IMG/VR virus record: IMGVR_UViG_3300042731_006671
Span: 1 to 62,895 of that record
Direction: 5' to 3' (one strand)
DNA from: a virus
DNA length: 62,895 nt
Part shown: positions 50,559-52,769 of the stretch, piece by piece
How the letters are laid out: each line of letters starts with the position of its first letter
Position numbering within the stretch: position 1 is the first letter of the stretch
Program-made: the position numbers and the translations under genes
The notes under the pieces: model-generated
Databases searched by the model: none
What the model was told of the DNA's origin: nothing
The model's input: the letters and a program-made list of their open reading frames with translations, nothing else

Positions 50559-50588
50559 AATTGGACTCCTTTATAATTTTATTGTAAA

Positions 50589-50632
50589 ACTTGCTCAAAA
50601 CCTACTATATAATACAGTAGGTTAAGAGTAAA
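50589..50632 (-). repeat. 44-bp hairpin repeat R1
   Basis: ACTTGCTCAAAACCTACTAT..., a 10-bp hairpin centred on CCTACTATAT. Nearly identical to R2 (52125) and R3 (52464). One base differs (T to C), changing an A-U to a G-U pair in minus-strand RNA, so the fold is kept. It lies 3 bp after the stop of the gene 50635-50862. Confidence 0.8.
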
Positions 50633-50634
50633 TT

Positions 50635-50862
50635 TTATAAACCACTTGATAACCATTCAGCAATACATAATATTGCTTGTTGCTCGTTGTTTGTTTCTTC
50701 TTTAACCGTTTCAACAGCTTTCCGGGTTGAGGCATCAATAATTATTTCTGTTTCGAAAAAGTTTTGAGCTATGGCATAGAACCTATGCGGGTCTATAAAA
50801 CCTTTTAATTGTAATTCGTGTCCTAATTGTTCAAAAAAGTTTTGAGCGTCTTTTAAATCCAT
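50635..50862 (-). CDS. Hypothetical acidic protein
   Basis: 75 aa. MDLKDAQNFFEQLGHELQLK, acidic and helical. Two short helices plus ASTRKAVETVKEETN. Family unknown. Followed by repeat R1. Confidence 0.45.
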   Translation of the reverse strand: MDLKDAQNFFEQLGHELQLKGFIDPHRFYAIAQNFFETEIIIDASTRKAVETVKEETNNEQQAILCIAEWLSSGL

Positions 50863-50885
50863 ATAACCTCCTTATTTTAATTTTA

Positions 50886-50946
50886 CAACCGACACTGGCT
50901 ATTATACCAGTGTTTCGTCTTAATTTTCAAAGACTCGTCAGGGCTG
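50886..50946 (-). ncRNA. Hammerhead ribozyme 1 (type I)
   Basis: Minus-strand RNA folds as: stem I CAGCC/GGTTG (50942-50946 with 50886-50890); core CUGACGA (50941 to 50935); stem II GTCTT/AAGAC with 8-nt loop (50917-50934); GAAA (50913-50916); stem III ACACTGG/CCAGTGT; cleavage triplet GUC, so cutting between 50891 and 50890. Every invariant core base is present. The TGA stop of gene 50938-51195 is bases U4-G5-A6 of the core. Confidence 0.9.
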
Positions 50947-51195
50947 CTTATTTTTAAAAGCATGGATCCCATCAACTTTATCATCTAAGACATCTTGGTC
51001 ATAAATGAATAAAACGTTTTTATTCTGATTCATCATTTCTCTGACGCAACCAAGAATTGAAATATGCGGTTCCATACCGCATACATCTATAACAATATAG
51101 TTGTAATCTTCTAAATGACATAAATGCATTAATAAATCTATGTCATCTAAACTATGTGCAACAATAAATATTTTATTGTCAATGACATGTAACAT
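50938..51195 (-). CDS. Hypothetical protein ending inside hammerhead 1
   Basis: 85 aa. MLHVIDNKIFIVAHSLDDID, a Rossmann-like beta-alpha pattern with VLFIYDQDVLDD. Its final codons AAG CAG CCC TGA belong to stem I and core of the ribozyme. No family recognised. The overlap means that the mRNA's 3' end would be set by self-cleavage. Confidence 0.6.
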   Translation of the reverse strand: MLHVIDNKIFIVAHSLDDIDLLMHLCHLEDYNYIVIDVCGMEPHISILGCVREMMNQNKNVLFIYDQDVLDDKVDGIHAFKNKQP

Positions 51196-51232
51196 TTTCT
51201 ACCTCCCTATTTAAAATTTAATGCTTGTAAAA

Positions 51233-51251
51233 GCCCCCGTGTAAAAGGGGC
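51233..51251 (-). terminator. Small GC hairpin after the 52-aa gene
   Basis: GCCCCC (51233-51238) and GGGGC (51247-51251) pair. Minus-strand TTTTAC follows. It lies 17 bp after the stop at 51269. Confidence 0.55.
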
Positions 51252-51268
51252 AATTATAAGGACTAAAC

Positions 51269-51427
51269 TTAGTAACTTTCTTCAATGTCCTTAATTTCCT
51301 GTTGAATTTTTTTAAATTCAACATAAATTTTGCAAAACTTTTTATTTTTTTCTTTTTTCAGGGCCTTTCTCATTTTGTTTTTTAATGCATTTCTTTTTTG
51401 AAGTAACCGGCTATAATAAGTATCCAT
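51269..51427 (-). CDS. 52-aa basic coiled-coil microprotein
   Basis: Starts at ATG 51427 with GGAGG 6 bases upstream. MDTYYSRLLQKRNALKNKMR and a Lys-rich helix end in IQQEIKDIEESY. Likely RNA- or DNA-binding given its charge, but the function is unknown. Confidence 0.6.
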   Translation of the reverse strand: MDTYYSRLLQKRNALKNKMRKALKKEKNKKFCKIYVEFKKIQQEIKDIEESY

Positions 51428-51438
51428 GTTAACCTCCT

Positions 51439-51470
51439 TTTACCCCCGCATAAAACTATGCGGGGGTAAA
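51439..51470 (-). terminator. 14-bp perfect hairpin before the 52-aa gene
   Basis: TTTACCCCCGCATA and TATGCGGGGGTAAA pair perfectly around AAAC. It lies 5 bp after the 51476 stop and 12 bp before the 52-aa gene start; it may both end the upstream message and shape the next leader. Confidence 0.75.
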
Positions 51471-51475
51471 ATCAA

Positions 51476-51706
51476 TTACTTTTGATAGCCATCGGAAATT
51501 TTTCGATGTACTTTCCATTTGTGGTGGGCTTCTTCCCGTTTGTAGATCAATTGTTTGATACGTTCAATTAACCTGTTATACGCATCAGAATCCCATTTGT
51601 GTTCAGGTAATTGTTTTGCTAAAGAATTGATTTCATTACTGGTTGCGATTACTTCTGTTTTGAAATAATCCTCCCAGAAATCAACCTGTTCTTTTGTTAG
51701 ATGCAT
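51476..51706 (-). CDS. Hypothetical small protein
   Basis: About 76 aa from ATG 51706, chosen for GGAG 6 bases upstream. MHLTKEQVDFWEDYFKTEVI, helical and acidic, then a basic tail (RKISDGYQK). After hammerhead 2 self-cleavage, its mRNA would begin about 110 nt upstream with a 5'-OH. Confidence 0.5.
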   Translation of the reverse strand: MHLTKEQVDFWEDYFKTEVIATSNEINSLAKQLPEHKWDSDAYNRLIERIKQLIYKREEAHHKWKVHRKISDGYQK

Positions 51707-51810
51707 AAAAAACTCCTTTTTAGTTTTTAGATTGTAAATAGCGGTTAAGTTTTTCACCGACTTTCACGATCTTTGGTACTTCACTCTTCCCCCGGCTTGC
51801 ACGGGTATTT

Positions 51811-51873
51811 ACAACCGACATTGACGTAAAGGTCAGTGTTTCGTCTTAATTTTCAAAGACTCTTCAGGGTTGT
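51811..51873 (-). ncRNA. Hammerhead ribozyme 2 (type I)
   Basis: Same plan as ribozyme 1: stem I ACAACC/GGTTGT (6 bp perfect); core CUGAAGA (51867 to 51861); stem II GTCTT/AAGAC, identical loop; GAAA; stem III ACACTGAC/GTCAATGT with one C-A mismatch; cleavage after GUC between 51817 and 51816. The loop II sequence is identical to copy 1, and stem III covaries. No CDS overlaps it. Confidence 0.88.
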
Positions 51874-51879
51874 TTTAAA

Positions 51880-51903
51880 GTACCGGGGCATATGCCCCGG
51901 TAC
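51880..51903 (-). promoter_or_regulatory. 24-bp perfect palindrome
   Basis: GTACCGGGGCAT and ATGCCCCGGTAC meet without a loop, 6 bases upstream of hammerhead 2 in minus-strand RNA. A very GC-rich cruciform in AT-rich DNA; it may insulate the ribozyme or serve as a protein site. Confidence 0.7.
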
Positions 51904-52096: not shown

Positions 52097-52124
52097 TTTA
52101 TACCCCCTTAAATTAAATTTTAAG

Positions 52125-52168
52125 ACTTGCTCAAAACCTACTATATAATATAGTAGGTTAAGAGTAAA
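52125..52168 (-). repeat. 44-bp hairpin repeat R2
   Basis: Copy of R1/R3 (ACTTGCTCAAAACCTACTAT...). It lies 9 bp after the stop of 52178-52429. Same hairpin, with perfect A-U pairs. The flank ATTTTAAG is shared with R3. Confidence 0.8.
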
Positions 52169-52177
52169 TTTTAAATA

Positions 52178-52429: not shown

Positions 52430-52463
52430 GATTAATCTCCTTTTATATGAATCAAATTTTAAG

Positions 52464-52507
52464 ACTTGCTCAAAACCTACTATATAATATAGTAGGTTAA
52501 GAGTAAA
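52464..52507 (-). repeat. 44-bp hairpin repeat R3
   Basis: Copy of R1/R2, 35 bp upstream of ATG 52429. Its location at the end of the gene-free leader suggests that it closes the leader RNA. Confidence 0.8.
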
Positions 52508-52509
52508 AC

Positions 52510-52769
52510 TTAAAGGAGATAAAAGGAGTATTTTAATTGGGAACTGGTTATTCCTGTAACCCTTGTTTATCGAACGTATTCGGATAATAAAGGTTTAGGA
52601 GCCAAACTCATAAAGAGTTTGTTTTGTGTGTTCCGGGTGTTTTAAAAGTACGCGTTTTATTCATACTAACCTTAAGACAACTAAGGGGTTCTGATCCGAC
52701 CTTCTTTGAGGCCGTTTCCTGTGTTAATGAGTATTAAAAAGAATTGTTGATTAACTAACTTATAATAAC
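52510..52769 (-). other. Gene-free leader RNA
   Basis: About 260 bp from the promoter to repeat R3. No ORF longer than 17 codons. It holds an AAACTC/GAGTTT hairpin near 52604 and GC-richer segments (near 52688-52715). It is likely an untranslated, structured leader or small RNA. Confidence 0.5.

Follow-up and report, generated by a model that had tools for sequence, protein, structure and literature searches.

A type I hammerhead ribozyme at a phage gene junction with the stop codon of the upstream gene in its core

Here, we describe a hammerhead ribozyme encoded on the minus strand of a phage genome at the junction of two small genes. Sequence comparison and folding confirm it as a real hammerhead, a new instance of a kind known from phages, and it probably acts as an intercistronic processing ribozyme of the phage that would cut a polycistronic transcript at 50891/50890. 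The window is the whole stretch of 62,895 nucleotides of IMG/VR record IMGVR_UViG_3300042731_006671, and all coordinates refer to it (Table 1). As proposed in the initial annotation, the TGA at 50940-50938 that ends the upstream gene is exactly the core triplet U4-G5-A6.

Structure and identification of the two copies

Read 5' to 3', the minus-strand RNA of copy 1 (50947-50885) is GCAGCC-CUGACGA-GUCUU(UGAAAAUU)AAGAC-GAA-ACACUGGU(AUAAUA)GCCAGUGU-C/GGUUGU. Stem I pairs GCAGCC (50947-50942) with GGUUGU (50890-50885) in 6 bp, two G-U pairs included, and is followed by the core sequence CUGACGA (50941-50935). Stem II comprises 5 bp (GUCUU/AAGAC, 50934-50930 with 50921-50917) under an 8-nt loop, and the GAA at 50916-50914 leads into stem III (50913-50906 with 50899-50892), whose 8 bp are seven Watson-Crick pairs and one G-U pair. 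Stem I is open and loops close stems II and III, which is the type I topology. The element had earlier been described as a complete type I hammerhead, which all core bases, the minimum free energy (MFE) fold and a covariance model score of 70 bits bear out. The extent first given, 50886-50946, was right to one base pair, the true span being one base longer on each side. The cut had been placed between 50891 and 50890, and the alignment to the covariance model likewise predicts H17 at this position.

Table 1. Features on the minus strand of the window and the basis of each assignment
Feature	Position	Strand	Basis
Type I hammerhead ribozyme, copy 1 (stem I to stem I)	50885..50947	minus	sequence, fold, covariance model, descriptor
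Predicted cleavage site, C17 (50891) / G1.1 (50890)	50890..50891	minus	H17 position in alignment to covariance model
UGA, stop of ORF 51195-50938 and core U4-G5-A6	50938..50940	minus	sequence
Upstream ORF, 85 codons; last codons AAG CAG CCC contain the stem I 5' strand	50938..51195	minus	ORF, codon usage
Downstream ORF, 75 codons, Shine-Dalgarno AAGGAGG; 28-nt leader (50890-50863) after the predicted cut	50635..50862	minus	ORF
Promoter-like TTGAAA-N18-TATAAT, TG before the -10	50901..50930	minus	consensus match only
Type I hammerhead, copy 2; predicted cut 51817/51816	51811..51873	minus	sequence, descriptor, covariance model (66.8 bits, E 7.9e-21)
Segment between predicted cuts, 926 nt, three small ORFs (51706-51476, 51427-51311, 51195-50938)	50891..51816	minus	ORFs, model alignment

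A second copy, overlooked in the initial annotation, sits 926 nt upstream of the first. The invariant core is complete in both (C3 U4 G5 A6 N7 G8 A9, G12 A13 A14, A15.1-U16.1 and H17), and three helices of 6, 5 and 8 bp surround it in each case. Copy 2 shares with copy 1 the core except for N7, loop II and the stem I 3' strand GGUUGU; its stem III is different and contains one C-A mismatch. It is located away from gene ends, the previous ORF stopping 110 nt before it and the next gene starting 110 nt after its cut. Since the MFE structure of a long RNA comprising copy 2 and its downstream leader lacks stem I as drawn, copy 2 is the weaker of the two. The first 10 nt of this leader (51730-51816), GGUUGUAAAU, can pair with AUUUACAAUC, which directly precedes the next gene's ribosome-binding site. 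Such a predicted helix could sequester the 5' end left by the cut, in competition with stem I; the overall fold of the leader is not clearly better than that of shuffled sequences (z -1.58), and therefore no claim is made on it. Directly 5' of copy 2, a long GC-rich hairpin, TACCGGGGCATATGCCCCGGTA, occupies 51879-51902 in a phage of 28% GC.

The unconstrained MFE structure of a 71-nt RNA carrying copy 1 is exactly the hammerhead (-22.2 kcal/mol, z -4.66, 0 of 200 shuffles). A type I structural descriptor matches the window at copies 1 and 2 and nowhere else; with stems of at least 5/6/5 pairs, it has no match in 60 Markov-simulated windows. A covariance model was built from 26 other phage hammerheads with the window left out; it assigns 70.0 bits (E 5.5e-22) to copy 1, 66.8 bits (E 7.9e-21) to copy 2 and 8.9 bits to the next match. 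This score includes an exactly shared 30-nt stretch of core and stem II, and the structure was therefore also tested apart from the sequence. Of 120 sites picked out solely by their core and stem II letters, 103 have stems I and III both in register, compared to 9% after exchange of the flanks among sites and 0.3% after shuffling of the flanks. The pairing in the 26 model sequences concurs, with 99.5% of cells paired and changes on either side of each of the five stem I pairs. As these sequences had been pre-selected by a pairing descriptor, the flank test on 120 sites is the fairer test of covariation.

The comparison with the Rfam hammerhead models on the minus strand, which had been suggested as a check, detects neither copy at the gathering threshold. 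Core and three-way junction of Hammerhead_1 (RF00163), Hammerhead_3 (RF00008) and RAGATH-1-hammerhead (RF03152) do align with the window copies, but peripheral stems and loops mismatch and the scores of 20-25 bits stay below the gathering values of 34-56. The best such match of copy 1 is to RAGATH-1-hammerhead with 24.5 bits, and copy 2 reaches 20.9 bits in the Rfam type I model. At the same threshold, Rfam is also silent on eight related phage loci holding dozens of good hammerheads found by the descriptor. A negative Rfam scan is thus uninformative here and points to a gap in the models.

These sub-threshold scores are all that counts for chance hairpins which happen to fit the hammerhead consensus. 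The probability of this reading is practically negligible, given that no equally strong descriptor match occurs in the 60 simulated windows, that copy 1 has an E-value of 5.5e-22, that one phage carries two copies and that 91 viral contigs share the 30-mer. The simulated windows, the flank-swap and shuffle controls and the covariance model together rule it out.

The exact 30-mer of core and stem II occurs in 91 IMG/VR stretches and in 38 stretches of bacterial genomes, mostly Clostridia with a few others, e.g., Anaeroplasma, Elusimicrobia and Bacteroidales. Near matches are found in crAss-like phages and Agathobaculum phages, and two broader patterns yielded at least 120 matches each. By annotation, the gene upstream of the hammerhead in Agathobaculum phage AB434P2 stops at a UAA that directly precedes stem I, and the following gene starts 39 nt past the cut. 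Sequence comparison across the subfamily of the window copies finds loop II, UGAAAAUU, and the AA directly 5' of stem I to be near-invariant, a pattern that would fit a putative contact of loop II with the stem I region. An unusual stem III, which starts with ACCUAG and ends with CGAUGGU, recurs at seven loci whose hammerheads are otherwise different.

Stop codons and gene junctions in phage hammerheads

We surveyed 411 distinct phage hammerheads from 286 contigs and scored the longest upstream ORF of each. Its stop falls on the core UGA in 53 cases (12.9%, from 46 contigs) and at most 13 nt before it in another 205, and the ORF reads past in 42. Taken together, 258 of 411 (63%) have the stop between -13 and 0 of the core UGA, i.e., inside the stem I region or the core. 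At CTGANGA sites of the same loci that are not part of a hammerhead, an ORF's stop is found in 4.0%.

Any gene running into the core in the frame of its UGA has to terminate at this codon, and a random reading frame is therefore the right null. Applied to the 300 ORFs that reach position -13, it predicts 62.7 core stops where 53 are observed (p 0.18), 102 earlier stops against 205 observed, and 135 later ones against 42. Specific selection for the core stop had at first seemed supported, both by the comparison with other CTGANGA sites (53/411 versus 4%) and by a count by frame (53 versus 42); randomisation of the reading frame removed this support. The stop at the core is not specifically favoured; instead, genes tend to end before the core, and read-through of the ribozyme is avoided. 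The overlap, which had looked new in the initial annotation, thus occurs in 53 of 411 distinct phage hammerheads at the random-frame rate, and it arises from the UGA within the invariant CUGA and from the tight packing of genes. We found no report of a stop codon in a hammerhead core in the open-access literature; the term 'stop codon' occurs 0 times in PMC3088659 and in PMC6155905.

The more usual stop also shares letters with the ribozyme, since the two A directly 5' of stem I are near-invariant in the window subfamily and form part of a UAA there. In copy 1 this UAA (50950-50948) is present but out of frame. Downstream of the cut, a start codon with a Shine-Dalgarno sequence follows at 15-60 nt in 217 of 386 cases, compared to 39 of 386 random positions. 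The median distance is 34 nt, and copy 1 has 28 nt.

It is conceivable that the core stop is placed deliberately, such that a terminating ribosome delays cleavage and ties the separation of the cistrons to translation of the upstream gene. By the established ribosome footprint, a ribosome at the UGA would cover stem I and the core. In line with such gating, 63% of phage hammerheads have a stop at most 13 nt from the core, and both members keep the core stop in 7 of 18 pairs of hammerheads with homologous flanks, although stems II and III change in several of these 7. In the other pairs, however, one member has its stop elsewhere, at -9, -10 or -14 (often -9 or -10), core stops are no commoner than in random frames (53 versus 62.7, p 0.18), and copy 2 has no gene end nearby. 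Gating by the ribosome is thus possible but unlikely, and these figures do not favour it specifically.

Genomic context, promoter-like match and shared stem I

The upstream ORF has the Shine-Dalgarno sequence AGGGAGG and shows coding-like codon usage in its own frame only. For the ORFs flanking copy 1 no relatives were found in viral contigs, and none in phages for the upstream gene, so that the junction cannot be traced in close kin. Nor can it be traced through the terminase, as the descriptor finds no hammerhead at the 80 loci of its relatives (at most 58% identical). The genes around are phage genes (terminase, DNA polymerase, ligase, helicases and primase). A 65-bp intergenic repeat is present in three copies that are 91-95% alike (50575-50639, 52111-52175 and 52450-52514), all placed ahead of a minus-strand gene's ribosome-binding site. 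It contains a perfect-looking AT-rich palindrome, CCTACTATATTATATAGTAGG, and may be a promoter, an RNA hairpin or a site for a regulator. The noncoding region 52560-52745, which lies upstream of the block of minus-strand genes, is unusually GC-rich for the phage and looks structured; it has no convincing Rfam match.

The promoter-like match listed in Table 1 had been overlooked before. It lies wholly within copy 1, its -35 falling in loop II and its -10 in loop III. With an extended -10, it is the strongest promoter-like match of the region (11/12 plus TG) and the only such site in the window, where 0.18 are expected per simulated window. This would suit an element that is mainly the promoter of the downstream gene, the ribozyme being a decayed relic. 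Against this stand the intact catalytic bases of both copies and the preservation of stems I and III at sister sites, and the exact -10 in loop III occurs in just 2 of 107 sister ribozymes, the window copy included. We consider the relic most improbable, and take the candidate promoter inside copy 1, a consensus match, as a lead.

Within a single phage, stem I is more alike among the hammerheads than stems II and III are, as seen at five of the loci inspected and at others. Cross-pairing of stem I over at least 5 bp is possible for 46% within contigs versus 3% between contigs, and the stem I 3' strand is identical in both window copies. Two hammerheads might accordingly release the 926-nt segment, whose 5' GGUUGU could anneal to copy 1 at the 5' strand of stem I, and religation would give a circular mRNA or joined flanks. 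However, stem I is also better kept than stem III among orthologous hammerheads of different phages, and this slower change explains the sharing, which then needs no circularisation. As evidence for circular or spliced RNA, the sharing within phages is weakened by this control. Moreover, some phages have several incompatible stem I sequences, and Perreault et al. sought circular or spliced products and found none (PMC3088659). Circularisation or splicing is therefore highly improbable.

Proposed role and relation to known phage hammerheads

We prefer intercistronic processing as the role of copy 1. From the sequence, the fold, the covariation in relatives and the position at gene junctions across phages, we infer cleavage, the fate of the mRNAs and an effect on expression as follows. 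The polycistronic minus-strand transcript would fold into the type I hammerhead at the junction of the two small genes and cleave itself co-transcriptionally between C50891 and G50890. The upstream mRNA would retain its stop codon and end in the ribozyme, with the stem III hairpin and a 2',3'-cyclic phosphate; the ribozyme-capped 3' end put forward in the initial annotation is thus plausible. The downstream gene would gain a 28-nt leader with a 5'-OH that carries its Shine-Dalgarno sequence.

Phage hammerheads in gene-flanking arrays cleave in vitro and in E. coli, and it was proposed that they cut long phage transcripts into gene-sized mRNAs (PMC3088659). The spacing between cut and start in the survey (median 34 nt, here 28 nt) fits this proposal. 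The placement at gene junctions in the survey and the occurrence of the core stop at the random-frame rate speak for processing; the flanking genes without relatives, the position of copy 2 away from a gene end and the sub-threshold Rfam scores of both copies speak against it.

A more elaborate arrangement would put three uses on about 60 nt, namely the last codons and stop of one gene, the cutting ribozyme, and a promoter of the next gene with its start a few bases from the cut. A ribosome terminating in the core would gate cleavage, and translation of the upstream gene would decide whether the downstream gene is supplied through cleavage or from a promoter of its own. We regard this combination as very unlikely.

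That hammerheads exist in some phages was correctly stated in the initial annotation. In phages and prophages, they flank single genes (Perreault et al. 2011, PMC3088659; review PMC6155905), with the type I core also seen here, multiple copies on the same strand and small non-conserved ORFs. The window likewise has two same-strand copies 926 nt apart with three ORFs between them and phage genes around. There is no difference in kind from the gene-flanking hammerheads of these two papers; the overlap of core and stop codon is unmentioned there and recurrent here. HHphage of the haloviruses HF1 and HF2 (PMC3088659) lies 13 nt upstream of a phage start codon, compared to 28 nt here, and its cleavage makes the 5' end of the mRNA. 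It is a core variant from an archaeal virus, whereas copy 1 has the consensus core.

The role of phage hammerheads has yet to be settled (PMC6155905), and the survey sharpens this question by placing the ribozymes at gene ends, where 63% of 411 have the upstream stop within the stem I region or the core and a start follows about 34 nt past the cut. The proposed novelty, namely that a stop codon lies in the core, recurs as a by-product of this geometry and needs no special selection. The useful result is the wider survey, beyond the single site: its 411 distinct sites, missed by Rfam at threshold in the loci checked, provide material for a better model and for tests of competition between ribosome and ribozyme.
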